Source of the DNA: Polynucleobacter sp.
GTDB lineage: Bacteria > Pseudomonadota > Gammaproteobacteria > Burkholderiales > Burkholderiaceae
Length of the DNA: 48,538 nucleotides
Reading direction: 5' to 3'
NCBI GenBank assembly: GCA_030696845.1
Contig: JAUYRJ010000007.1
Location: 1 to 48,538, forward strand
The notes beneath the pieces were generated by a model. The model worked only from the letters and a program-made list of their open reading frames with translations. It was not told the DNA's origin and searched no databases. Shown in pieces: positions 22,017 to 41,646 of this stretch; position 1 is the stretch's first letter; each line of letters opens with the position of its first letter. The position numbers were made by a program, and so were the translations under genes.

Positions 22017-22865
22017 TTACGGGTCTAAATGACTAAAAACCACGCGCTCGGGCGCGTTGTAAATCTCGAAATGCTTACCCGAACAGCGGGATAAGAGGGT
22101 TAAGTTCGTCTTGCGCGCCAGTTCCAGACCCATTTGCGTGACACCAGAACGGGTCAGCAGGAATGGAATGCCCATTTGCGCGCCCTTGATGACCATTTCG
22201 GAGGTTAATCGCCCCGTAGTGAAAAACACCAAATCGCGCCCTGCCTTATCCGCAAGCCACATCAAGCCGGAAATCGAATCCACCGCATTATGGCGACCCA
22301 CATCTTCGATAAAGTGAAGGAGCTCCACCCGATCCTCGCCCTTGCGCTCAAAGACAGCGCAAGCATGCACCGACCCCGATTTTTTGTAGATGGTGTCATG
22401 TTGGCGTATCTGGTCAATCAGATCCACAATCGCGGCCTGGTGGAGAACAGGACCGTCTGGCAAGCGAATCTGCTCCATCTCCTCAATTAAGCCGCCAAAC
22501 ATCGTGCCCTGACCACAGCCGGTAGTGACGATGCGCTTGCTGGTGAGCTTATCGATATCGACGGTACTGCGGCGGGTTTTGACTGCCGCCGAATCGGTCT
22601 CCCAGTCAACCTGAATGCTCTCAATATCATCGGGCGATTCCACCAGACGCTGATTGCGCAGGTAGCCCAATACCAGGGCTTCTGGAGCGCTGCCCAGGGT
22701 CATCAAGGTGACCACTTCACGCTTGTCCAGATAGATGGTTAAGGACCGCTCACCCGGCACGTGTACCGTCTTTTGACGGCCAACTTCATCGATGATCTGG
22801 ACTTCGTGCACCAGAGGTACCGAGGCATTGGACATCGCGATACGGGGATTTGCAGCCATTGACAC
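22017..22865 (-). CDS. fdhD: Formate dehydrogenase accessory sulfurtransferase FdhD
   Basis: This 282-residue protein delivers sulfur from a cysteine desulfurase to the molybdenum cofactor of formate dehydrogenase. Family blocks are present: FHLD-like [13 protein letters not shown] near residue 185, [30 protein letters not shown], and GCGQGT at the position of the active loop. The loop has one Cys where the well-studied enterobacterial protein has a CxxC pair. No formate dehydrogenase is encoded in this window, though the oxalate module would yield formate. It is divergent from metG. Confidence 0.92.
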
Positions 22866-26707: not shown

Positions 26708-27640
26708 TCAAATGCTGAAGAATTGGTCGACTTGCAATTCAAGGTTTTTGGCTAATTCCGCGCCGCTGACCTTGCCTGCCGGACCCTTGGCCTTGAGAAC
26801 CTCGATTTGACCGCCGTGGCAGGCGACAAAGAACGACTCTGGGCCAATTGCAGTAATTTGCCCAGGCTTACCTTTGACTGCGCCATAAGTGGCTACAACG
26901 TGTTTTTTCACATCGTAAATTTGCACTTTTTGCTCACCCAGCATGGTCCATGCTCCTGGCGCGGGATTGCAGGCACGGATCAGATTATGAATCTGCGTAA
27001 TGTGCGTTGACCAATGAATGCGCGCCGCATTTTGATCAAACCAGCCCTCATAGTTTGCGAGGGCTTCGTCTTGAACCACTTCCTGATGCTTGCCGGCCGC
27101 CACCAGATCAGCAGCCTCTAGAAGCGCCTGCACCCCCAGCGGGAAGAGGTGATCGAAATAGACCGTGCCCAGCGTGTCATTCTCACCAATAGCAACTTCT
27201 TTTTGCAAAATCACAGCGCCTTCATCCAGACCATCTGATGGGCGGAAGATAGTCAGGCCGGTTTTTTGCTCGCCCAAGGCAATTGCCCAGTTAATCGCAC
27301 TGGGACCGCGGTATTTAGGCAGGAGGGAGGGGTGATATTGGATCGTGCCCAAGCGCGGAATGTTCGCAAGCTCTTGCGGTACAAACTGCAACACATAAGC
27401 CATCACGCAGATATCTGCGCCACTATCCCGCATCGCCTGAGCGGCTTCAGGACCCTTGAGCGAGGCAAACTGTAAAGGCACGAGGCCTTTAGCCAGCGTC
27501 GCCTCTTTGAGAATCTCCGGCTTGGTTGCCTTGGGATTATCGGGCGGACAAAAGACAGCGACTACTTCGTCGCCGCGCGCCAAGAAAGCCTCTAATGCCG
27601 CTTTACCAAAATCTTGGCTGCCAATCAGGGCGACTCGCAC
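26708..27640 (-). CDS. Stand-alone formyltransferase resembling the hydrolase domain of 10-formyl-THF dehydrogenase
   Basis: This 310-residue protein has a formyltransferase N domain followed by an FMT C-terminal-like domain (from about residue 205). The active-site stretch QYHPSLLPKYRGPSAINW (His103) and SDGLDEGAVILQKE (Asp139) match His106 and Asp142 of the hydrolase domain of animal 10-formyl-THF dehydrogenase. The Asn of methionyl-tRNA formyltransferase (N-x-H-x-S) is replaced, as in that domain. The start is a GTG placed on the base right after the upstream frc stop codon, so translation is coupled. It probably handles a formyl group on folate; direct use of formyl-CoA is inference. Annotating it as fmt would likely be wrong. 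Confidence 0.8.
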   Translation of the reverse strand: MRVALIGSQDFGKAALEAFLARGDEVVAVFCPPDNPKATKPEILKEATLAKGLVPLQFASLKGPEAAQAMRDSGADICVMAYVLQFVPQELANIPRLGTIQYHPSLLPKYRGPSAINWAIALGEQKTGLTIFRPSDGLDEGAVILQKEVAIGENDTLGTVYFDHLFPLGVQALLEAADLVAAGKHQEVVQDEALANYEGWFDQNAARIHWSTHITQIHNLIRACNPAPGAWTMLGEQKVQIYDVKKHVVATYGAVKGKPGQITAIGPESFFVACHGGQIEVLKAKGPAGKVSGAELAKNLELQVDQFFSI

Positions 27641-28888
27641 TTAAATGACTTTCCGATGGCGTAAGTCAATCAACTCATCAATATTAAATCCGAGCTCTTG
27701 AAGAATCTCATCTGTATGCTCACCTAGCAATGGTGAACGCGTGACTTCAGTTGTGCTGTCCGACAACTTGATGGGATTGCCCACTGTCAAATACTTACCA
27801 CGAATGGGGTGATCGACTTCAACAATCGTACCCGTTGCACGCAGAGCGGGTTCTTCGGCGATTTCTTTCATCGACAAAATGGGGCCGCATGGCACATCAT
27901 ATTTATTCAGGATGTCCATCACCTCAAACTTGGTTTTGGTCATAGTCCACTTTTCGATCTCGCCAAAGATGTGCATGAGCCGCGGTAAACGCGCCATGGG
28001 GGAGGAATAGTCATGATCGGTAATCCACTCTTCTTTACCAATAACCTTGCAGATCGCTTCCCAAACCGCAGCTTGAACGACCACATAGATATAGGAGTTG
28101 GGATCATTTTCCCAGCCCTTGCATTTCAAGATCCAACCTGGCTGACCGCCACCCGAAGCATTACCTGCGCGCGGAACCGAATCACCAAAGTGGCCATTCG
28201 GAAACTGCGGATACTCTTGCATCATGCCATTACGCTCTAGGCGTTGCTGATCACGCAACTTCACGCGGCATAAATTCAATACCGCATCTTGCATTGCTGC
28301 TTGAACACGCTGACCGCGACCCGAGTGGGTACGCTGAAACAACGCAGTCACAATACCCAAAGCGAGGTGTAATCCTGTTCCACTATCACCAATTTGCGCG
28401 CCGGTAACCATGGGAGGGCCATCATCAAAACCGGTAGTGGATGCAGAGCCGCCAGCGCATTGCGCTACGTTCTCATACACTTTGCAATCCTCATATGGAC
28501 CGGGACCAAAGCCTTTGATCGATGCCATGATCATGCGAGGATTTAGATGCTGAATATGCTCCCATGTAAACCCCATGCGATCCAATGCGCCTGGTGCGAA
28601 ATTTTCAACGAGCACATCGCACTCTTTAATCAAGCGCTCAAGAATGTCTTTACCTTCGGGAGTTTTCGTATTGACTGTGATCGAACGCTTATTGTGATTA
28701 AGCATCGTGAAATACAAACTATCCGCATCGGGAATATCGCGCAACTGACCGCGCGTCGCATCCCCCTCACCAGAGCGCTCCACCTTAATTACATCAGCGC
28801 CAAACCATGCCAACAACTGCGTGCAGGTCGGGCCAGATTGAACGTGTGTGAAATCAAGAACCTTTACTCCTTCAAGTGCTTTTGCCAT
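27641..28888 (-). CDS. frc: Formyl-CoA:oxalate CoA-transferase, copy 1
   Basis: This 415-residue class III CoA-transferase moves CoA from formyl-CoA to oxalate, giving oxalyl-CoA and formate. The catalytic Asp168 ([14 protein letters not shown]) corresponds to Asp169 of the Oxalobacter enzyme, and Gln17 (FTHVQSGP) is also present. The glycine loop [11 protein letters not shown] is intact. It is closely similar to the second copy at 29514 over its whole length. AGGAC precedes the ATG. The downstream formyltransferase gene starts immediately at its stop codon. It may have its own promoter in 28889-29003. Confidence 0.92.
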
Positions 28889-29003
28889 TACCGTAGTCCT
28901 AATAAGAATTGAAATTTTGAATTACTCAAATTCTACCAGTCGGCATATGCTGCATTGCCCTCTTTTACCTTATTGAACCTAGGCTCCTAGCGCCAGCCAA
29001 GGT

Positions 29004-29447
29004 CTACTTTGGCGCTCCTGGATTAGCGGCGCTCTCAAGCTCTGAAAGTCGATTTCGCAATGCGCGATCCGTGTGAAAACGTTCTGTTTCATCACGAATC
29101 GTAGCCGCCACCCCGGTAGCGCGATGTGCCTCATCAAAGAGCATGGTTACCGTGAAGGCAATCGAGAGGGTTCTACCGTCCTTGTGCAGCGCGGGCACTT
29201 TTAAGAGCTGCGTTCCATAGCGGGTTGTGCCCGTTTCCATCGATTTTTCATAGCCCTCCCAATGCCGATGTCGAAAGCGCTCAGGCGTAATGAGATCCAA
29301 ACGCTTGCCTAGGGCCTCCGCCTCGGTATATCCGAATATACGCTCTGCCGCCTTATTCCATAGCACGATATCCCCTTGCGCATCCGAGACAATCACTGCA
29401 TCACCCATGCCATGGACCAACTGCTTGTAATCGATTGCATCCTTCAT
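29004..29447 (-). CDS. Single-domain PAS protein inside the oxalate module
   Basis: This 147-residue soluble protein is almost entirely one PAS domain (residues about 5-122), followed by a short helical tail (DRALRNRLSELES). Typical PAS blocks are DAVIVSDAQGDIVLWNKAAERIFGY and the final TGVAATIRDETER. ERFRHRHWEGY (His60, His62) lies where heme PAS domains such as FixL carry the heme histidine, but this stretch is also common in non-heme PAS domains. There is no output domain, so it may act by binding another protein. CAGGAG precedes the ATG, and an intrinsic terminator ends only about 14 bases upstream of the start. Confidence 0.8.
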   Translation of the reverse strand: MKDAIDYKQLVHGMGDAVIVSDAQGDIVLWNKAAERIFGYTEAEALGKRLDLITPERFRHRHWEGYEKSMETGTTRYGTQLLKVPALHKDGRTLSIAFTVTMLFDEAHRATGVAATIRDETERFHTDRALRNRLSELESAANPGAPK

Positions 29448-29461
29448 GCGCTCTCCTGAAT

Positions 29462-29488
29462 AAAAAAGGCACTCACAAGGAGCGCCTT
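29462..29488 (-). terminator. Intrinsic terminator between frc copy 2 and the PAS gene
   Basis: On the minus strand AAGGCGCTC and GAGTGCCTT form a nine-pair stem with one G-U pair and a five-base loop, followed directly by TTTTTT. This is a textbook terminator for the oxc-frc message. It lies about 15 bases before the PAS start codon, so PAS expression needs read-through or antitermination. Confidence 0.8.
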
Positions 29489-29513
29489 AAAGGGTCAAAC
29501 TAAATTATTGTTA

Positions 29514-30764
29514 TTAAACTGCTTTTGCCGCATGCAACTTGGCAATATCATCTTTTCCGTAGCCAAGGTCAGCCAACACTTCATCAGTGTGCTCACCTAA
29601 AACTGGGGATGGCTTCACTTCGACCTTCAAGTCCGAGAACTTAATTGGGCTACCAATTGTCAAGTACTTACCGCGCACTTTGTGGTCGACTTCAACAATC
29701 GAACCGCTCGCACGTAAGTCAGGAGACTCAGCCAGTTCCTTCATCGAGAGTACTGGAGCGCAAGGAATATCAAACTTACGCAAGATATCGACTGCTTCGT
29801 ACTTGGTCTTGTCTTTGAGCCAATCTTCAATGGTTGCGAAGATGTCAAAAATCTTGTCTTGACGCGCTTGTGCAGTCATGTAAGCAGGGTCGGTTGCCCA
29901 CTCTGGACGACCTAAAGCCTTGGTAATTGGCTCCCAAGCGTGACCTTGGATGGTGAAGTAAATGTAAGCGTTTGGATCGGTTTCCCAACCTTTACACTTC
30001 AAAACCCAGCCTGGCTGACCGCCGCCACCGGCATTGCCGCCGCGGGGCACAACATCCGAGAATGTGCCATGGGGATACTGTGGGTACTCTTCCAAGTAAC
30101 CAACGCGATCCAAACGTTGCTGGTCGCGCAATTTAACGCGGCACAAGTTCAATACAGCGTCTTGCATCGAGCAAGCAACCTTCTGACCACGGCCAGTCTT
30201 CTCGCGGTGCATCAGCGCTGTCAAAATACCAATCGCCAAGTGCATACCGGTATTGCTATCGCCCAAAGCGGCAGCAGATACGGTAGGAGGACCATCCCAG
30301 AAACCAGTTGTGGAAGCGGCACCGCCAGCACACTGAGCCACGTTCTCATACACTTTTAAATCTTCGTATGAGTGGCCATCGCTAAAGCCTTTTACCGATG
30401 CCATGATCATGCGTGGGTTGAGTTCCATGATGCGTTCCCATGAGAAACCCATGCGATCCAAAGCGCCTGGACCGAAGTTCTCAACCATGACGTCGGAAAC
30501 CTTAATCAACTTCTCCAATACTTCTTTGCCTTCTGCGGTCTTAGTATCCAATGTCAACGAACGCTTGTTGCCGTTGAGCATGGTGAAATATAAAGCGTCT
30601 GCATCAGGAATATCGCGCAACTGACTACGGGTTACATCGCCAGAACCAGGACGTTCTACTTTGATCACGTCCGCGCCGTACCATGCCAACAACTGGGTAC
30701 ATGCAGGGCCTGCTTGTACGTGTGTGAAATCGATGATGCGGATTCCGTCTAATGGCTTGCTCAT
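29514..30764 (-). CDS. frc: Formyl-CoA:oxalate CoA-transferase, copy 2 (with oxc)
   Basis: This 416-residue class III CoA-transferase has catalytic Asp169 ([14 protein letters not shown]), Gln17 (FTHVQAGP) and the glycine loop [11 protein letters not shown], as in the characterised Oxalobacter enzyme. It lies 42 bases after oxc with a strong Shine-Dalgarno sequence (AAGGAG), so oxc and this gene form the core oxalate operon: CoA is transferred from formyl-CoA to oxalate, oxalyl-CoA is decarboxylated by Oxc, and formyl-CoA is recycled. It is followed by a clear terminator. Confidence 0.94.
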
Positions 30765-30806
30765 ATTAAATCTCCTTAGGGTTGCTTACTACTTAACTCT
30801 ACAAAA

Positions 30807-32516
30807 TTACTTCTTTGTCGCAGTACTTGCTGGGTTGAGATTCGTCAGGCGACCACTTTCGGTACCTGCTGTTTCGTCAATGACAGCATTGATTAGTGCT
30901 GGCTTGCCTGCGGCTATTGCCTCAGTCAACGCCTTCTCTAATTCCTGTGGGGTGGTGACGTTGTAACCGATTCCACCAAACGCTTCCATCATCTTGTCAT
31001 AGCGAGCGTTTTTCACGAATACGGTAGGAGCAACATCAGCACCACCGGTTGGGTTTACGTCAGTACCGCGGTAAACACCATTGTTATTGAAAATCACGGT
31101 GGTGATTGGCAGGTTGTAACGGCAAATGGTTTCGAGTTCCATACCGCTAAAACCAAACGCGCTATCGCCCTCAACTGCGACAACTGGCAAGCCGCTGGTT
31201 ACTGCTGCACCAATGGAATAACCCATACCAATACCCATAATGCCCCATGTACCCGAGTCAAAACGCTTGCGTGGTTTGTACATATCCACGATGGAGCGGC
31301 AATAGTCGAGTGTATTTGCGCCTTCGTTAACCAGGTTAACGTCTGGGTTTTTCTTGATGACATCACGAATCACACGCAAGGCGCCATGGAAGTTCATTGG
31401 CGATGCTTCTTTGGCAAGTGTTTCTGCCATCTTCGCCATGTTCTTATCTTTCTTCTCATTGATGGCGCCAATCCACTCTGCGCTTGGCTTAGGTACCGAT
31501 GCGATACCTTTCAAGAGTTCGCCTACGCATGAACCAATATCACCAATCAATGGAGCGTCGATTTGAACGTTGCTATCGACTTCGTTTGCCTGAATATCGA
31601 TTTGAATAAATTGCTTACGCTCTTTACCCCATGTCTTACCTTTACCGTGGGCAAGCAACCAGTTCAAGCGGGCGCCGACCAAGAGCACTGCGTCGGCTTC
31701 AGCCAATACAAAAGAACGTGCCGCAGCAGCGGACTGTGGGTGATTGTCTGGCAACAAGCCTTTAGCCATCGACATTGGCAAGTAAGGAATGCCGGATTTT
31801 TCGATCAGCGCACGAATGTCCGCGTCGGCTTGAGCATAGGCAGCGCCTTTACCCAAGAGAATTAAGGGACGCTTAGCGCCTTTGAGTACGTTGAGCGCGC
31901 GCTCAACTGCATCAGCAGCTGGAATCTGGCGTGGAACAGGGTCGATGACTTTGAAAATCGACTTCTTGGCTTCTGCTACTGACAGAGTCTGGGAGAGCAG
32001 TTGTGCTGGTAGATCCAAATACACACCGCCTGGACGACCAGAAACGGCTGCGCGAATAGCGCGTGCGATACCAATGCCGATATCTTCAGCATGGTTAATA
32101 CGGTATGCGGCTTTAGCGTATGGCTTAGCTGCGTTGAGCTGATCCATCTCTTCGTAATCACCCTGCTGCAAGTCAACGATCTCGCGCTCACTCGATCCGC
32201 TGATCAGAATCATTGGGAAGCAGTTCACTGTCGCGTTTGCCAAAGCGGTCAAACCATTCAAAAAGCCTGGAGCGGATACGGTCATGCAAATACCTGGCTT
32301 TTGAGTCATGTAACCAGCGATCGCGGCTGCGTTACCGGCATGCTGCTCATGGCGGAAACCGATGAAGCGCATTCCTTCTGCTTGAGCTAAACGGCACAAG
32401 TCCGTAATCGGAATACCTACGAGACCATAAATGGTGTCGATGTCGTTTGCCTTTAAGGCGTCGATAACAAGGTGGAATCCGTCTGTTAATTCTTGGTTTT
32501 GATTTTCGTTTGTCAT
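30807..32516 (-). CDS. oxc: Oxalyl-CoA decarboxylase
   Basis: This 569-residue thiamine-diphosphate enzyme converts oxalyl-CoA to formyl-CoA and CO2. The TPP-activating Glu57 lies in GFRHEQHAG, the position of Glu56 in the Oxalobacter enzyme. The C-terminal TPP/Mg motif is [37 protein letters not shown] (in part) near residue 450. It starts at the ATG at 32516 with only a weak ribosome-binding sequence (AAGAA). It is followed by frc copy 2. Upstream lies a palindrome suited to the neighbouring Crp/Fnr-type regulator. Confidence 0.95.
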
Positions 32517-32648
32517 AAAAGTATTCTTGGTTTGATTGCTTCAGTCCACAGATGCAGAACAAGGCAATTTAGCTAGTGCTATTTGTCTCCGATTAAAAGT
32601 ACTCCTAAAACAAAGTGAAAAATACAAACTCCGTTTAGGTTGGTATGC

Positions 32649-32690
32649 ATCTTAGGCTTGGGGGTACAGATCATCATTGACTTGCGTCAA
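32649..32690 (-). promoter_or_regulatory. Candidate oxc promoter with FNR-type operator
   Basis: TTGAC-TTGC-GTCAA (32677-32690) is a perfect 5+5 palindrome with the half-site spacing of FNR-type regulators. On the minus strand TAAGAT (32654-32649) lies where a -10 element would be if the operator is centred at -41.5, putting the start at about 32642 and a leader of about 126 bases before oxc. This is the class II activator layout. It is a pattern match, not proven. Confidence 0.55.
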
Positions 32691-32705
32691 TTTCCCCTAA
32701 AAACC

Positions 32706-32752
32706 AATAAAAACCGAGGGTTAGAGCCTGTCAGGGACAGACTCAAAACCCC
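32706..32752 (-). terminator. Intrinsic terminator after the Crp/Fnr regulator gene
   Basis: On the minus strand GAGTCTGTC and GACAGGCTC form a nine-pair stem with one wobble pair (32724-32744), flanked by a further GGGTT/AACCC pairing, then CGGTTTTT and a second T-run. It lies just after the regulator stop codon and separates its transcript from oxc. Confidence 0.75.
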
Positions 32753-32759
32753 ACAAAAT

Positions 32760-33377
32760 TTAGACAAATAGGTCTTTATGCTTTGTTTTAAGGCGACTTA
32801 AGGTCTCAGGCGATAAATTCAAATAGGCCGCTAGTTCTTTTTTGGGCAAAAGACCAAACAAACTCTCGTATTTACGCAAAAAGCGCTCAACCCGCCCTGG
32901 AGCATCGAGCATATGGAGCGTGATGGTATGCGCCATGATTTCACTCATCAGGCGCATGACCTCAAACTCAAAGCTTTCTTTGAGCGGGGTGTGCTGCTCT
33001 AAAAACTCCGTCCATTTTTTCATTGGCATCCGAGCAACCCTGGCCTTGGTGACACAGGCAATGCTGTAAGGGGCAGATTTTTTCAGTCGCCACGCCGCGT
33101 AACTGGTCTCAATATCTTTTTCAATCGAGAACCGTAGGATCATTTCTTTGGCATCTGAACTGGAGACAATCCGCTTCAAAATGCCGTCCAGCACAAAGTA
33201 CTGCTCCATCTGGTGGTCACCTTGATGCAGCAATATCTCTGATTTTTTTAAGTCCGCAATCTCTAAATGGCGCTCTAGCTCAGACATGCTTTCTGGTCCA
33301 AGGCTTTTTAAAACCACGTTTTGGCTGAGTTGCAAACGAATCAGATTTTTCTCGGGATGTTTTTCTAATACAGTCAT
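32760..33377 (-). CDS. Crp/Fnr family transcription regulator, likely regulator of oxalate genes
   Basis: This 205-residue protein has an N-terminal cyclic-nucleotide-like beta-roll (about residues 20-125), a long dimer helix, and a C-terminal winged helix-turn-helix (LPKKELAAYLNLSPETLSRLK). The recognition helix carries Glu191, Ser194 and Arg195, the E-x-x-S-R pattern by which FNR reads TTGA half-sites. There is no N-terminal cysteine cluster, and the only Cys is Cys108, so it is not an Fe-S oxygen sensor. The cAMP-binding residues of Crp are not evident, so the ligand is unknown. AGGA supports the start. Control of oxc is inferred from position and the matching palindrome. Confidence 0.85.
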   Translation of the reverse strand: MTVLEKHPEKNLIRLQLSQNVVLKSLGPESMSELERHLEIADLKKSEILLHQGDHQMEQYFVLDGILKRIVSSSDAKEMILRFSIEKDIETSYAAWRLKKSAPYSIACVTKARVARMPMKKWTEFLEQHTPLKESFEFEVMRLMSEIMAHTITLHMLDAPGRVERFLRKYESLFGLLPKKELAAYLNLSPETLSRLKTKHKDLFV

Positions 33378-33650: not shown

Positions 33651-33815
33651 GACAGGTGGAATTTTGCGGACGGGGATCCTTCGCGCGCCAGTAGAAGCGT
33701 TTGCGTGGATCCCATGCGCCGCACATATTGACGTTCTGGAAGCTCGCCCAATGAATTCTGTTCGACTCGGCTAACGGGGAAGTTGGCTTGGTCATTCGAC
33801 GGCAGAAGGTTCATC
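33651..33815 (+). promoter_or_regulatory. Riboswitch expression platform ahead of btuB
   Basis: This stretch holds no gene. It contains GGGATCC/GGATCCC arms (33673-33679 and 33707-33713), with CTTC/GAAG inside, that can pair, and the ribosome-binding site AGAAGG at 33804-33809. No T-run follows the hairpin, so control of translation is more likely than transcription termination. Confidence 0.5.
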
Positions 33816-35750
33816 ATGAAACAGCAGTTCAGCATCAGACAGTGCGCATCCGCACTGAGTCTTACTCTTTTAACAACAGCAACCCCTTGGCAATTCGCGC
33901 TTGCGCAAACGCCCAAGGTATCGGTTTCTAATACGGCCGACCCACTCAATCCAATCATTGTCACCGCTACACGTACACCAACCAAAGCAAGCGATGTATT
34001 AGCGGACAACATCTACATTGGCCCTGAAGAAATTGCGCAAGCAGGACAAACTAGTCTCGTGGAGTTATTACAACGGCAACGGGGTGTTGAGATTACTGGT
34101 GCTACAGGTAGCGGCGGCAGTGGCACAAGTGTTTTTTTAAGAGGGACAAGCAATCAACAAACTTTGCTCCTAATTGATGGTGTACGCGTTGAGGCTGGTT
34201 TTTTAGGTGGCCCCTCATGGTCTGCCATTCCTTTAGCAATCATTGATCACATTGAAATTATTTTTGGTCCGCAAAGCAGCTTGTATGGCTCAGACGCTAT
34301 TGGTGGAGTTATTCAAATCTTTACAAAAACAGGTGACGGGCCATTTCAAGCAACCGCATCATCAGGCTATGGAACCTACGGAACCACTATTAGTGAAGCT
34401 GGTATTTTTGGCAGGGGTGGAAAAGATAATCAAGTGAAGTACTCTATCAGCGCCACTCAAGAGGTTTCGTCAGGATTTAACCTGATCGCCAACAATATGC
34501 CGTTTCGCTCGGGCTATAACACTAGTCAAAATATGGGGTACACAAAAGATGGCGGCACTGGAAAGATTAGTTATGAATTTAGTAAAAACCAAGAGCTTGG
34601 GGTGCAATTTTTTGCTAGTCGATTAAAGTCACAGGCCTCAGCAAATCAAACCAGCCTTGCAGAGTCAATTGGTAGCGTTAGTAGTTTTTCAGTTTTCTCT
34701 AAGAATCAGATCACGGACATTTGGAAAAGTTATCTACAAGCCTCTCAGTCATATGACTCTGGTCAAAACCTCTACTACAACTCCTTGTATAACACCAAGC
34801 AAAATATTTATACATGGCAAAACGACATTCAAATTGGGCAAGATGTACTTCAGCTATTGGCTGAACGAAGAACGCAAAATGTTTACTCCGATGCGGTAAA
34901 TTTCAATACCTCCTATCAACAGGAGCAGTTTTCGCAAACTCGAAATACCAACTCTCTCGCAGGTCTATATCAACTAAATCGAGGACCTCATTTAGCCAAT
35001 CTGTCATTTAGAAATGACAACATTACGGGATACGGATCTCAAAATACAGGGGGAATTTCTTATGGGTACTTCTTCACAAAACAGCTCAGGATGAATGTGA
35101 ATTACGGAACCGGCTTTCGAGCTCCAACATTCAACGATCTTTACTATCCAGGCTACGGCAACGCTAATATTCAAGCGGAAAAAAGTAAAAATACCGAAGC
35201 CGGCATTCACTATGAGTCCCGCACATACGACGCCCGGCTGGTTGCTTACAGCAATACGATTACGAATTTAATTCAATCGTCCGGCAGCATTACAACACAA
35301 TGCGCCCCAGGGAGCTACGGCTTTTCTGGATGCGCAACCAATGTTGGCGCTGCAAAAATAACAGGGCTATCGATTGGTGGCGCTCTAAGAACAGGCAATT
35401 TCAGTTTTAGGGGTTCCTTCGATCAGCAAAATCCGGTGAATGAAACTTCAGGTGAAGTTTTGGCTAAGCGAGCCAAACAATTTGGTAATGCCGGCATTGA
35501 ATATCAAAAAGGATTAATTAAGGCTGGGGCTGAAGGGAATTTTGTGGGTAGGCGCTATGACAGCTATCCCGCCAATGCACCAATGGGTGGATATGCACTC
35601 TTCAATCTCTACGGTGATTATCAGCTAATGCGAGATTTATCTTTATTCGCTCGCTGGAATAACGTCTTCAACAAAGATTATCAATTAAGCTATGGCTACA
35701 ACACGCCCGGATCGAATGTCTTTGTTGGCCTTCGTTACGCCATGAAATAA
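33816..35750 (+). CDS. btuB: TonB-dependent vitamin B12 receptor
   Basis: This 644-residue outer-membrane receptor imports cobalamin with energy from TonB. It has a signal peptide (about residues 1-31, ending in FALAQ), a TonB box-like IIVTATRTPTKASDV, a plug domain with LLQRQRGVEI, VFLRGTSNQQTLLLIDGVR and IEIIFGPQSSLYGSDAIGG, then a 22-strand type barrel. The barrel ends in a terminal aromatic-rich strand VFVGLRYAMK. The ATG at 33816 follows AGAAGG; a TTG at 33783 opens the same frame but lacks a signal-like start. The barrel is more AT-rich than its neighbours. The riboswitch and btuFCD identify the substrate. Confidence 0.9.
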   Translation: MKQQFSIRQCASALSLTLLTTATPWQFALAQTPKVSVSNTADPLNPIIVTATRTPTKASDVLADNIYIGPEEIAQAGQTSLVELLQRQRGVEITGATGSGGSGTSVFLRGTSNQQTLLLIDGVRVEAGFLGGPSWSAIPLAIIDHIEIIFGPQSSLYGSDAIGGVIQIFTKTGDGPFQATASSGYGTYGTTISEAGIFGRGGKDNQVKYSISATQEVSSGFNLIANNMPFRSGYNTSQNMGYTKDGGTGKISYEFSKNQELGVQFFASRLKSQASANQTSLAESIGSVSSFSVFSKNQITDIWKSYLQASQSYDSGQNLYYNSLYNTKQNIYTWQNDIQIGQDVLQLLAERRTQNVYSDAVNFNTSYQQEQFSQTRNTNSLAGLYQLNRGPHLANLSFRNDNITGYGSQNTGGISYGYFFTKQLRMNVNYGTGFRAPTFNDLYYPGYGNANIQAEKSKNTEAGIHYESRTYDARLVAYSNTITNLIQSSGSITTQCAPGSYGFSGCATNVGAAKITGLSIGGALRTGNFSFRGSFDQQNPVNETSGEVLAKRAKQFGNAGIEYQKGLIKAGAEGNFVGRRYDSYPANAPMGGYALFNLYGDYQLMRDLSLFARWNNVFNKDYQLSYGYNTPGSNVFVGLRYAMK

Positions 35751-35759
35751 ACCCCGTAT

Positions 35760-36662
35760 ATGAATCGCACACAACTACCAAAAAATAAGCGCCTCAAAAT
35801 CGCTTCAATGCTGTGTATTGTTGTGTACTTTTCTGTATTCAGTATCGAGGCGTTTGCAAGCATCTTAGTCAAAGACGATCGCGGTGTTGAGCTTCGTTTA
35901 AATGCGCCCGCGCAGCGCGTCATTAGTATGCTGCCCTCCCTCACTGAGTCGGTTTGCGCTCTAGGCAAGTGTTCTGTCTTGGTTGGGGTGGACCGCTTTT
36001 CAAATTGGCCTAAAGCCCTTGATCGCCTGCCTCGCCTTGGCGGCATTGCCGATGCCAATCTCGAAGGGATTGTTCGGCTTAAACCCGATCTGGTCTTATT
36101 AGAAAAGTCTTCGCCCATCATTTTGCGTCTGCAAGCCTTAGGTATTCCAGTAATGGCATTTGATGTGCAATCGATAGCCGATGTACAGCGCTCCTTGCGG
36201 AAACTGGATACAGTCTTGGGCTCTACTGAGTCGGGCGCAGTATGGGATCGGATTCAGCTTGACATTGCGCGCGCCAGCCGCAACCTGACGCCATCGCAAA
36301 AAGGCATTCAAGTGTATTTTGAAGTCAATCCCGCGCCCTTTGCGGCCGGTAAGACTTCGTTTATCGGTGAGTTGCTAGAGCGCCTTGGTGTACAAAACAT
36401 CGTTACTGAAAAGATGGGGGCCTTTCCAAAAATCAATCCTGAGTTCGTGGTGCAATCAAAGCCCGCTTTAATCATGACGTCCGAAAGCTCTGCCGCGCAG
36501 TTAGCGCAGCGTCCGGGCTGGAAATCCATTCCAGCAATTAAAGATGGCCGGGTATGTTTATTCAACGCATCGGATGCGGATGTATTGGTGCGCCCCGGTC
36601 CACGGGTTGGCGAGGCAGCCTCTATCATCGGACAATGCATTGCACGCACCATACCAAAGTGA
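35760..36662 (+). CDS. btuF: Periplasmic vitamin B12-binding protein
   Basis: This 300-residue class III binding protein delivers cobalamin from BtuB to BtuCD. An N-terminal signal segment (LKIASMLCIVVYFSVFSIEAFAS) covers residues 12-34. The BtuF/FhuD pattern RVISMLPSLTESVCALG, VGVDRFSNWP, LKPDLVLLE and a conserved GKTSFIGELLERLG follow. The ATG comes nine bases after the btuB stop codon without an obvious ribosome-binding site, so translation may depend on btuB. Confidence 0.88.
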   Translation: MNRTQLPKNKRLKIASMLCIVVYFSVFSIEAFASILVKDDRGVELRLNAPAQRVISMLPSLTESVCALGKCSVLVGVDRFSNWPKALDRLPRLGGIADANLEGIVRLKPDLVLLEKSSPIILRLQALGIPVMAFDVQSIADVQRSLRKLDTVLGSTESGAVWDRIQLDIARASRNLTPSQKGIQVYFEVNPAPFAAGKTSFIGELLERLGVQNIVTEKMGAFPKINPEFVVQSKPALIMTSESSAAQLAQRPGWKSIPAIKDGRVCLFNASDADVLVRPGPRVGEAASIIGQCIARTIPK

Positions 36663-36672
36663 TTACCTAGTC

Positions 36673-37656
36673 ATGCACCCCTCCTTTGCACCCAAAATCA
36701 GTTTGCTATTGGTCATTAGCATTGGCTTATTAGGGATTGGCGCGGCCGTAGGTAGCGGTGGCTTGAGCTGGAATCTCGACTCGGGTGTTTTACAGAACAC
36801 CATCGTGCTCGATATTCGTCTGCCTCGCTCAACTGGGGCATGGCTGGCTGGCGCGCTCTTGGGTCTGGCCGGCGCAATTGCGCAAGGTGTATTTCGTAAC
36901 CCGCTAGCCGATCCGTATTTACTGGGAAGCGCCTCTGGAGCGCTGATGGGTGTAGCGCTGATCTTAGGCTTTGCGCACCTCGCGCCCGACTCTTGGATTG
37001 AGCTGATCGGCCTTAACGGCAGCGCATTTGTGGGGGCGCTTCTGGGAGTGTTGGCAGCGCTCATACTGGCTGGCGGCTATCGCAGCTCGTTGCGACTACT
37101 GCTCTCTGGTGTCGTGATTAGCGTCATTCTAGGAGCGGGGAATGCGCTCTTCACCTTTGTGCGCCCCGATCTCTATCAGCGCTTGCAGGCCTTTATGCTA
37201 GGCAACACCAGTCTTTTGGACTGGCAAGGCGTTTACATCCTGCTTCTGGTTTGGTTTATTTGTATTGCGCTCACCTTATTAATGAGTGCAGCGCTTGATG
37301 CTTTAAGTCTGGGCGAGAACACCGCCAAAACCGTTGGCCTGCCGATTGACCAAATGCGCCTCGGACTAATTGGTATTCTGGCCATTGCTACGGGCTGCGC
37401 TGTCGCGCAAACCGGCTTAATCGCCTTTGTTGGTTTGGCTGCGCCACACTTGGTTCGGCGACTTGCCAATGGCCATCAGCGGATGCATTTAATCCTATCC
37501 AGCCTTGCCGGCGGCATTTTGCTACTGTCATCTGATCTGCTTGCGCGTAGTGCACTCGCACCCCTGGAACTGCCCGTCGGCATCATTACCGCTGTCGTTG
37601 GCGGCATTTACCTACTGGTGCTACTGCGCCGTCAGTCAGTGGGGGCTAGCGGATGA
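36673..37656 (+). CDS. btuC: Vitamin B12 ABC transporter permease
   Basis: This 327-residue FecCD/BtuC-type permease has about ten membrane segments. LPRSTGAWLAGALLGLAGA, FRNPLADPYLLGSASGALMG and FVGLAAPHLVRRLANGHQR are family blocks, the last being near the cytoplasmic loop that docks on the ATPase. I start at the ATG at 36673, ten bases after btuF. The frame extends upstream through btuF, but that extension has no family sequence. It overlaps btuD by four bases. Confidence 0.92.
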   Translation: MHPSFAPKISLLLVISIGLLGIGAAVGSGGLSWNLDSGVLQNTIVLDIRLPRSTGAWLAGALLGLAGAIAQGVFRNPLADPYLLGSASGALMGVALILGFAHLAPDSWIELIGLNGSAFVGALLGVLAALILAGGYRSSLRLLLSGVVISVILGAGNALFTFVRPDLYQRLQAFMLGNTSLLDWQGVYILLLVWFICIALTLLMSAALDALSLGENTAKTVGLPIDQMRLGLIGILAIATGCAVAQTGLIAFVGLAAPHLVRRLANGHQRMHLILSSLAGGILLLSSDLLARSALAPLELPVGIITAVVGGIYLLVLLRRQSVGASG

Positions 37657-38423
37657 ACGCAATCCAGACGCGCCAGCTTTCGGTATTCAGAAACGCTAAA
37701 CCCATGTTGAGTGATCTCGATTTGGATTTTCCAAGCGGCAAATGGACCAGTGTTGTTGGCCCTAACGGCGCCGGCAAATCTACACTCCTTCACGCTTTAG
37801 CGGGCCTTCTACCTTATACCGGGTCAGTAACAATGGGTGACTTAGAACTCTCCCTTGTCTCGTTGAGAAACCGCGCCCGCCGTATTGCATGGCTTGAACA
37901 AAGCAGTGCCGCGCCCGAAGGCTTGGATTTTGGTCCTCGCGTATACGATATCGTGATGCTGGGTCGCCTACCCCATCAAAGCTGGCTTCACCTACCCAGT
38001 GAGGGCGATCATGCAATGCTTGAGCACGTCATGCGCCAAACCGATGTTTGGGACTTGCGCAATCGTTTTTTTAGCCAACTCTCAGGAGGGGAGCGCCAAC
38101 GCGTTCTTTTAGCTCGGCTACTGGCCGTCGATGCCGAGGTCCTTCTAATGGACGAGCCGCTTGCCAACTTAGACCCGCCACATCAGTCGGACTGGCTAGA
38201 GTGGCAAAAAAGACTTGTTTCCCATGGCAAAACCACTATTACGGTCTTGCATGAGATTCAGTTTGCCTTAGAAGCCGAGCACCTGATTCTGTTGCGTGAA
38301 GGTCGCCTCTTTTATCAAGGCGGAAGTGATGATCCACTCACCCACAAGGCTTTAATTGATCTATTTGATGGACGCATTCATCTGCAAAAACTCGGTAATC
38401 ACTGGGTTACGCTGCCTCGGTAA
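37653..38423 (+). CDS. btuD: Vitamin B12 ABC transporter ATP-binding protein
   Basis: This 256-residue ATPase powers the BtuC channel. Walker A (GPNGAGKST) is at residues 36-44, the ABC signature (LSGGERQRV) and Walker B (VLLMDEPLANLD) follow, and the switch His lies in VLHEIQ. Its ATG overlaps the btuC stop codon. It ends the riboswitch-controlled operon. No cobalamin biosynthesis gene lies in the window. Confidence 0.92.
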   Translation: MNAIQTRQLSVFRNAKPMLSDLDLDFPSGKWTSVVGPNGAGKSTLLHALAGLLPYTGSVTMGDLELSLVSLRNRARRIAWLEQSSAAPEGLDFGPRVYDIVMLGRLPHQSWLHLPSEGDHAMLEHVMRQTDVWDLRNRFFSQLSGGERQRVLLARLLAVDAEVLLMDEPLANLDPPHQSDWLEWQKRLVSHGKTTITVLHEIQFALEAEHLILLREGRLFYQGGSDDPLTHKALIDLFDGRIHLQKLGNHWVTLPR

Positions 38424-40119: not shown

Positions 40120-41646
40120 TTATTTTGGAGTGTATTGCTGGCGCAGGATGTTTTTCTGTACCTTGCCCATCGCGTTGCGCGGCAAGTCGGCAACAATCTC
40201 AATTCGCTTTGGCACTTTAAAGTTGGCGATTTGCCCTTTGAGCGCATCAATCATGGCTTGCGAGTCGAGTTTTGCGCCCGGTTTAGCAACCACGACCGCC
40301 ATCACTGCTTCGCCAAAATCTGGATGGGGCACCCCAATCACCGCGCTTTCGTCTACGCCCGCCATGTCATCAATAAAGCTTTCAATCTCTTTGGGGTAGA
40401 CGTTGTATCCACCCGAAATAATTAAGTCTTTACTGCGCCCAACAATGCACAAGTAGTTATCCGGTACCTTAGCGCCATTTGCTATGCCGCCAAAGCGGCC
40501 CACATCACCGGTTTTAAACCAGCCATCGGCAGTAAATTCTTCAGCCGTTTTTTCTGGCATGCGCCAGTACCCCTTAAATACATTAGGGCCCTTAACCTGA
40601 ATACTACCAATCTCATCCACGCTGCACGGTTTATTGTTTTCATTTACCACACGCACCTTCACGCCCGTGAGCGGCACGCCTACCGAGCCACCCACTCGCG
40701 CGCCTTTATATGGATTGGAGACTAACATCACAGTCTCGCTCATGCCATAACGCTCCAAAATAGTTTGGCCCGTCACTTCCTTGAAGGTATTAAACGTCTC
40801 TGTTAGTAGTGGCGCTGATCCCGAGACAAACAAACGCATATTGCGGCATACGTCTTTAGTAAAGTTTTGATCAGCTAAGAGGCGTACATAGAATGTCGGC
40901 ACACCCATCATGACGGTTGATCGAGGCATATGCTGAATCAGCGCCGCGGTGTCGAGGCGTGGCAACCAAATCATTTTGCTGCCGTTAATCAAAGCGCCAT
41001 GGGCCGCCACAAATAAACCGTGAACATGGAATATTGGTAAAGCATGCAATAGCACATCGCCTTTTTGCCAGCCCCAGAATTTCTGCAAAACCAATGCGTT
41101 GCTACCCAAGTTTTTGTGGGTCAGCATTGCACCCTTACTGCGTCCCGTTGTACCCGAGGTATACAAAATCGCTGCGAGGTCGTCGTCATCGCGAGCGACT
41201 GTTTTAAATTGATCACTCTGCACGGCTGAGCGCTCCAACAGGGTTCCGGTGCGGTTCTCATCCAAGGTAAAGACGTGGTTCGTCCCCGACTTGAATGCGA
41301 TTTTAGAAACCCAGGCGAAATTTTTGCTACTACAAACCATCACTGCTGGCTCGGCATTCTGAATAAAATATTCGATTTCAGCGGCTTGATAGGCGGTATT
41401 GAGAGGCAAATACACATAGCCAGCGCGAATTGTGGCTAGGTATAAAAAGAGCGCCTCGGGGGATTTTTCAACTTGAACCGCAACCCGCGATCCCGCTGGA
41501 ATTTTTAAACCCTTCAGGAGGTTTGCCATCATGGCGGTAGCGCGCTCTAGATCACTCCAAGAGTAATAGAGGCCATCATGCGTCTCCAGGGCGCAGGCCT
41601 GGCGATCTTTGGGAAACCCTTTTTCCAGCACTGAATACAAATTCAT
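40120..41646 (-). CDS. matB: Malonyl-CoA synthetase (AMP-forming)
   Basis: This 508-residue acyl-adenylate enzyme activates malonate with ATP and CoA. Adenylation motifs are A3 YTSGTTGRSKGAMLTH near residue 163, A5 ILERYGMSET, A8 NYLCIVGRSKDLIISGGYN and the A10 lysine in NAMGKVQK. The assignment to malonate rests on overall resemblance to MatB and on the malonyl-CoA decarboxylase gene just upstream. GAGG six bases ahead of the ATG supports the start. It is convergent with tauE. Confidence 0.88.
   Translation of the reverse strand: MNLYSVLEKGFPKDRQACALETHDGLYYSWSDLERATAMMANLLKGLKIPAGSRVAVQVEKSPEALFLYLATIRAGYVYLPLNTAYQAAEIEYFIQNAEPAVMVCSSKNFAWVSKIAFKSGTNHVFTLDENRTGTLLERSAVQSDQFKTVARDDDDLAAILYTSGTTGRSKGAMLTHKNLGSNALVLQKFWGWQKGDVLLHALPIFHVHGLFVAAHGALINGSKMIWLPRLDTAALIQHMPRSTVMMGVPTFYVRLLADQNFTKDVCRNMRLFVSGSAPLLTETFNTFKEVTGQTILERYGMSETVMLVSNPYKGARVGGSVGVPLTGVKVRVVNENNKPCSVDEIGSIQVKGPNVFKGYWRMPEKTAEEFTADGWFKTGDVGRFGGIANGAKVPDNYLCIVGRSKDLIISGGYNVYPKEIESFIDDMAGVDESAVIGVPHPDFGEAVMAVVVAKPGAKLDSQAMIDALKGQIANFKVPKRIEIVADLPRNAMGKVQKNILRQQYTPK

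Follow-up and report, generated by a model that had tools for sequence, protein, structure and literature searches.

Oxalate catabolism as described in Oxalobacter and Escherichia coli relies on two enzymes. Specifically, oxalyl-CoA decarboxylase (Oxc; YfdU in E. coli) converts oxalyl-CoA to formyl-CoA and CO2, and formyl-CoA:oxalate CoA-transferase (Frc; YfdW) swaps CoA between formyl-CoA and oxalate with release of formate. Formyl transfer between folate and a thiol has been described for two other proteins. The N-domain of ALDH1L1, according to a passage of PMC8748788, takes formyl off 10-formyltetrahydrofolate (10-formyl-THF), with the phosphopantetheine arm of the carrier domain as acceptor. 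For the N-domain of HypX (HoxX), the relevant part of PMC6802093 proposes formyl transfer to CoA on the basis of structure, and a section of a 2025 review states that movement of formyl from N10-formyl-THF to CoA was later shown (PMC12134894). Here we describe a 48,538-nucleotide stretch of DNA (the window; contig JAUYRJ010000007.1 of assembly GCA_030696845.1), part of the Polynucleobacter-like genome of a freshwater bacterium (1.95 Mb, 99% complete, 86 contigs), in which oxc and frc are accompanied by a gene for a formyltransferase (FT). We put at roughly 55% the probability that FT is an accessory enzyme of the Oxc/Frc route, transferring formyl from formyl-CoA to THF and so toward folate, a reading drawn from sequence comparisons.

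The locus comprises six open reading frames at positions 26708–33377, all on the minus strand and in the order given by the first-pass annotation of this DNA: a Crp-type regulator, oxc, frcA, PAS, frcB and FT. The assignment of oxc and frc in that annotation to the known oxalate cycle was borne out by family scans, in which Oxc (30807–32516) exceeded two equivalog cut-offs (PRK09259, 1026 versus 557 bits; TIGR03254, 994 versus 739 bits) and FrcA (29514–30764) and FrcB (27641–28888) both exceeded that of TIGR03253 (734 and 737 versus 504 bits). The locus, with oxc and frc adjacent and both above curated equivalog cut-offs, fits, by sequence, type II Oxc/Frc oxalate catabolism. Other names returned by the scans were PAS, Formyl_trans_N and Formyl_trans_C (for FT), and cyclic nucleotide binding (cNMP-binding, for the Crp-type regulator). 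Whereas Oxc and the YfdW-like FrcA thus resemble the Oxalobacter and E. coli pathway, the cluster differs from it in adding FT, a second Frc with an SGGG loop, the PAS protein and the regulator.

No formyltransferase in an oxalate cluster was described among the papers listed in our search of open-licence literature; subscription papers lay mostly outside this search, and an earlier mention is possible. The FT family is the interesting part of the cluster and is apparently undescribed, and the placing of formyl from oxalate onto folate seems to be a step without a described gene. Oxalate CoA-transferase (EC 2.8.3.2) and formyl-CoA hydrolase (EC 3.1.2.10) have been without a gene since the early 1960s, as stated in a portion of PMC10192776. 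For formyl-CoA handling and for a separate CoA transfer, FT and FrcB of the SGGG type offer concrete candidates that are widely conserved. Synthetic one-carbon pathways spend ATP to reach folate from formate, and a formyl-CoA:THF transferase, if FT is one, would be a useful part for them.

Family and motifs of the formyltransferase

FT (26708–27640, minus strand) is a protein of 310 aa with a GTG start. By sequence, the nearest PDB entry is the ALDH1L1 N-domain (1s3i, E 2e-47), followed by Fmt, ArnA and, weakly, HypX. An AlphaFold model of FT based on 58 family members (mean predicted local distance difference test score, pLDDT, of 94.6) was matched by Foldseek to the folds of Fmt, ALDH1L1-N and ArnA and less well to HypX, for which the alignments gave 18–19% identity. 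As the model matches Fmt and ALDH1L1-N alike, the fold alone does not decide between them.

With respect to motifs, His-Pro and RGxSxx[NS]W were found in all 62 FT sequences compared, and the Asn of the NxH motif was absent from all of them, its place being taken by Gln in 60 and by Cys in 2. All three traits recur in the single ALDH1L1 row (rat) and the single HypX row (Cupriavidus), and NxH is present in 22 of 24 Fmt/ArnA rows, the other two being fragments that lack this stretch. FT has in common with ALDH1L1 the HPSLLP..RGxSAINW and PGAWT motifs and the His/Ser/Asp triad, and with HypX the HP and RGxSALDW motif. The triad (His103, Ser105 and Asp139), together with Tyr197, which aligns with ALDH1L1 Tyr200, is invariant in 58/58 sequences. 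In these terms FT carries a thiol-directed signature (H-P at the catalytic His, RGxSxx[NDS]W, no NxH Asn and a His/Asp triad), defined here from a single row each of ALDH1L1 and HypX rather than from a curated model. Moreover, in a 48-row tree FT joins ALDH1L1-N (support 98/88), apart from Fmt and ArnA; a group of FT that excludes ALDH1L1 is supported by 88/40 only.

Taken together, these comparisons place FT next to the ALDH1L1 N-domain and give it motifs like those of HypX, both being enzymes that pass formyl between 10-formyl-THF and a thiol, either of phosphopantetheine or of CoA. It differs from both in architecture: FT is a stand-alone bacterial protein linked to formyl-CoA enzymes, and its 310 aa hold Formyl_trans_N and Formyl_trans_C only, with no fused carrier and aldehyde dehydrogenase domain as in ALDH1L1 and no crotonase/decarbonylase domain as in HypX. 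We also considered whether FT is the Fmt of this genome, with which it shares its fold and both Formyl_trans domains, and rejected this assignment: FT scores 158.5 bits against the TIGR00460 cut-off of 201.5, lacks the NxH Asn and is placed elsewhere in the tree, and the genome carries a separate Fmt-like gene, recognized by tree and motif.

Linkage to formyl-CoA enzymes and formate–THF ligase

The distribution of FT was surveyed in 300 genomes of the order and in a further sample of 398 genomes of the phylum. In the order-level sample FT was found in 58 genomes at 293.7 to 695.8 bits, separated by a score gap from the next match (163.8 bits), and oxc was above its cut-off in 51; both occur in 47 genomes and oxc without FT in 4, which corresponds to a phylogeny-uncorrected odds ratio of 254. 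We fetched 57 order-level FT loci (excluding that of the window), and in 52 of these an frc lies directly 5′ of FT on the same strand, at gaps of 2–262 bp. The remaining five (L043, L045, L052, L067 and L080) all have oxc in the fetched stretch. Across the 57 stretches we counted oxc in 40, another thiamine pyrophosphate (TPP) enzyme in 9, a Crp gene in 50, a TctA-like gene in 34, OxlT in 9 and formate–THF ligase in 7. In the phylum sample FT was present in 10 genomes, at scores of at least 318 bits, and 9 of the 10 have oxc above cut-off; three further rows at 190–204 bits have the Fmt motif. Two distant genomes of this sample (L213 and L215, FT identity 41–50%) also have the arrangement oxc-frc-FT, and only one plasmid record contained FT, at 40%.

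The other TPP enzyme scores below the Oxc cut-off (248 versus 739 bits), and its nearest PDB match is 2-hydroxyacyl-CoA lyase. This lyase-like enzyme replaces oxc 5′ of frc-FT in L056, L058, L060, L064, L072, L078, L079, L085, L087 and L095, the ten loci obtained by clustering (cluster c13); locus typing gave 9. Enzymes of the 2-hydroxyacyl-CoA lyase class also make formyl-CoA, and the replacement is possibly another source of this thioester. The exchange of oxc for such an enzyme suggests, on sequence evidence, that FT follows formyl-CoA rather than oxalate. An OxlT-like gene is present in 3 of the 9 typed loci, so the alternative enzyme may still serve oxalate there.

In terms of folate metabolism, no formate–THF ligase was detected in the 99% complete genome of the window or in three other sampled genomes of the genus (E ≤ 1e-100). 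PurU is present in the window's genome, as is an alpha subunit of formate dehydrogenase whose gene is next to a NuoF-like one. The eight FT genomes of the order sample that lack the ligase are the four of the genus and G048, G103, G128 and G200. The ligase occurs in the other 50 of the 58 FT genomes versus 69 of 242 genomes without FT, a comparison uncorrected for phylogeny, and the association may reflect shared ancestry. Outside the genus FT may work together with formate–THF ligase, in either direction. In one genome without FT, oxc lies ~2 kb from formate–THF ligase (L224:4806-9197).

Proposed direction of formyl transfer

From the genes, their linkage, the motifs, the predicted fold and the missing ligase, we infer the substrates of FT, the direction of its reaction and its coupling to Oxc and Frc. 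An enzyme acting on formyl-CoA and THF is proposed because the ALDH1L1-N/HypX signature is found next to neighbors that make formyl-CoA. Specifically, FT would convert formyl-CoA and THF to 10-formyl-THF and CoA, a reaction that would reverse that of the HypX N-domain and mirror that of its ALDH1L1 counterpart, the His-Ser-Asp triad being shared. The direction toward folate is preferred because of chemistry and of genomic context, namely the absence of the ligase from the four genomes of the genus and the presence of PurU and formate dehydrogenase in that of the window. The folate one-carbon pool would in this way be fed without the ATP spent by formate–THF ligase. The first-pass annotation had suggested a diversion of formyl groups into one-carbon metabolism, and this remains the most probable reading given linkage, motifs, tree and missing ligase. 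A bolder form of this idea, for which we would offer slightly less than even odds, is that FT is a dedicated formyl-CoA:THF formyltransferase forming an ATP-free bridge to folate from oxalate and from the products of 2-hydroxyacyl-CoA lyase; such an enzyme could, where the ligase is present and runs in reverse, recover ATP from the formyl thioester, and would be the closest bacterial relative, among the sequences compared, of the animal ALDH1L1 N-domain.

Several observations weigh against this reading. In the order-level sample 11 of the 58 FT genomes have no oxc above cut-off, and in 8 of the 57 fetched loci the stretch contains no oxc and no copy of the other TPP enzyme, although oxc is encoded at another site in at least five of these genomes (G180, G002, G052, G008 and G242). 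In G638 and G008 the two genes are separated by a long distance or located on different contigs, the distance in G638 being 165 kb on a single contig. Among the best 80 named loci, obtained from an FT profile scan of named genomes, five contain FT but neither oxc nor a complete frc within the stretch; two of the five (L159 and L168) lie at contig ends, the latter with a fragment of frc. In a genome of the phylum sample that lacks oxc above cut-off, FT lies directly downstream of formate–THF ligase (L214:2264-4942). Moreover, 20 of the 29 oxc genomes of the phylum sample are without FT, and therefore oxalate use does not need FT, which is an optional companion of oxc. The ligase being present in 50 of the 58 FT genomes, FT is no stand-in for it outside this genus. 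As for the family assignment, ALDH1L1 and HypX are long branches represented by one row each, and membership in this family cannot by itself tell whether FT would transfer formyl to THF, hydrolyze its substrate or run in the reverse direction.

Of these alternatives, a reversed reaction, in which 10-formyl-THF and CoA yield formyl-CoA that primes the Frc cycle or feeds a carbon-joining lyase when formyl-CoA is scarce, appears unlikely. It corresponds to the direction described for HypX in the cited parts of PMC6802093 and PMC12134894, and both the adjacency of FT to the ligase in L214 and the ligase's frequency among FT genomes are consistent with it. Priming by another CoA-transferase is moreover a known theme (YfdE; from a passage of PMC3720670). 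Nonetheless, it requires a supply of 10-formyl-THF, and the ligase route from formate to this compound is missing in this genus; in addition, six other family III CoA-transferases in the window's genome might serve as primers. The thioester is, as a matter of general knowledge, the richer compound, and the forward direction should thus be favored.

We regard as improbable the proposal that FT is instead the missing formyl-CoA hydrolase (EC 3.1.2.10), splitting formyl-CoA to formate and CoA, either alone or as a net reaction with PurU, and feeding formate dehydrogenase. This activity has had no linked gene since 1963 (per the portion of PMC10192776 cited above), the related ALDH1L1 N-domain has 10-formyl-THF hydrolase activity according to its PDB names, and both PurU and formate dehydrogenase are present in the genome. 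However, Frc already frees formate while saving the CoA bond, such that hydrolysis would waste energy, and the co-occurrence of FT with formate–THF ligase points to folate. There is scarcely any likelihood that FT formylates another acceptor, such as a protein, sugar or amino compound, with the cluster supplying an abundant formyl donor. Formyl_trans_N/C proteins do span many acceptors, but the NxH Asn of the amine-directed Fmt/ArnA rows is missing from every FT compared, and no biosynthetic partner was seen (by eye) among the recurrent neighbors, though signaling genes recur downstream outside the genus.

Gene order, the two Frc and regulation

The arrangement of the cluster is conserved in part. 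Within the 80 named loci, the exact order Crp-oxc-frcA-PAS-frcB-FT is whole in 36 and whole but for PAS in 5, and 14 have shorter runs in the same order, mostly on short contigs; the remaining 25 comprise 12 with a divergent Crp-oxc-frc-FT arrangement and 13 others, including the five with FT alone. Among the matches listed, the named loci most similar to that of the window carry the title Polynucleobacter or come from untyped metagenome-assembled genomes (MAGs) of Burkholderiaceae and betaproteobacteria, with FT identities of 72–94% in the rows titled Polynucleobacter. The closest (L101–L104, FT 91–94%) have no recognizable PAS and more distant loci have it, a pattern of patchy loss. A MAG contig titled Ferrovum (L149:8001-8936) encodes an FT 74% identical to that of the window, without oxc or frc and with molybdate-transporter-like neighbors (by eye), which represents either a binning error or a stand-alone FT.

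Outside the genus, the usual arrangement in the order-level sample is TctC-, TctB- and TctA-like genes, a divergent Crp, oxc, frc and FT, the Tct names having been given by eye (no NCBIfam match for TctA was among the matches listed). A single six-gene operon as the conserved unit was rejected, since PAS is absent from five otherwise whole loci and from G031, and since a further two genomes of the family carry PAS after oxc-frcA without FT. The wider core is oxc (or the related TPP enzyme)-frcB-FT with a Crp gene, and the complete arrangement of six genes is assembled at the level of the genus. The first-pass annotation had named in advance a lack of conserved order in related genomes as refuting its proposal; the core is conserved, and the full six-gene order does not extend beyond the genus. 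Genes found 3′ of FT outside the genus, named by eye among 58 loci (e.g., L044, L046, L055, L063 and L089), are kinase-like (c7, 28 loci), phosphatase-like (c9, 25), FHA-like (c8, 26) and cyclase-like (c10, 19); none of these is present at the window locus.

The cluster also appears to be divided internally. In the window frcB and FT abut, and the other gaps are 42 bp (oxc-frcA), 66 bp (frcA-PAS), 115 bp (PAS-frcB) and 243 bp (Crp-oxc). The frcA-PAS gap holds a terminator-like hairpin followed by a T run (29466–29488, minus strand), which is conserved in Polynucleobacter-type loci. Counting hairpins under -8 kcal/mol before at least four T residues, we found one after frcA in 43/43 loci with PAS (1.6% in shuffles) and in the frcA-frcB gap of 9/9 loci without PAS (6.7% in shuffles), these loci being relatives and hence not 43 independent events. 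For the other gaps the counts of such hairpins were 1/46 (Crp-oxc), 0/47 (oxc-frcA), 5/43 (PAS-frcB) and 0/56 (frcB-FT). Another scan also lists the frcA-PAS hairpin, with a total at chance level (8 versus 8.4 expected); its credibility derives from its conservation across loci. Given this conserved position, the cluster seems to be expressed as two segments, oxc-frcA and PAS-frcB-FT, the second having frcB and FT tightly coupled (n = 56 loci, median gap 1 bp), and the earlier description of the module as self-contained is not borne out. A scan for consensus promoters gave 4, versus 8.1 expected.

FrcA and FrcB are 66% identical over 416 aa and differ in the glycine loop, which is GGGG in FrcA and SGGG in FrcB. 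In alignments each retains the GDS stretch, which we take to contain the catalytic Asp. FrcA matches YfdW with 695 bits over nearly its full length, and for both Frc YfdW is a far better match than YfdE. Typing of 182 family III sequences gave 123 SGGG, 51 GGGG and 8 other loops, the last being six unrelated CoA-transferases of the genome and those of L094 and L095. Among the 57 order-level loci and the window, GGGG copies are confined to the genus; the named loci add L165 and L170, whose titles read Comamonadaceae, and a further three genomes of the family have frcA-like copies. Each of the 32 FT genomes checked outside the family (of 54 there) has exactly one Frc above cut-off, and that Frc must therefore serve the pathway. 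The view of frcB as a mere spare copy was rejected on this basis and because it belongs to a distinct SGGG subfamily.

With respect to regulation, the first-pass annotation envisaged sensing of redox or oxalate state, for which the case is weak. The Crp/Fnr-superfamily protein (32760–33377, minus strand) is a cNMP-binding regulator conserved with the cluster, and it has no Fnr-type Fe-S cysteine set: the window protein has one Cys, and 63 of 108 relatives have none in the aligned part, with at most two in 107. The PAS protein (29004–29447, minus strand) is a single domain of 147 aa in which the family scan found no output (kinase) domain. PAS copies, 60–73% identical to that of the window, were seen only in Polynucleobacter-type loci and in the two family genomes mentioned above, where PAS has the same His. 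This residue, His62, aligns with the heme-ligand His of FixL and is kept in 43/43 aligned copies.

Further genes lie near the oxalate cluster in the window. Next to it, at 33783–38423, are divergent genes for a TonB receptor, a periplasmic binding protein, a permease and an ATPase (by eye), a set that resembles vitamin B12/siderophore uptake. An FdhD-like gene at 22017–22865 scores under both NCBIfam FdhD cut-offs (129 versus 269 and 124 versus 141 bits). A malonyl-CoA synthase-like acyl-CoA ligase (855 versus 558 bits) is encoded at 40120–41646, ~7 kb from the cluster.

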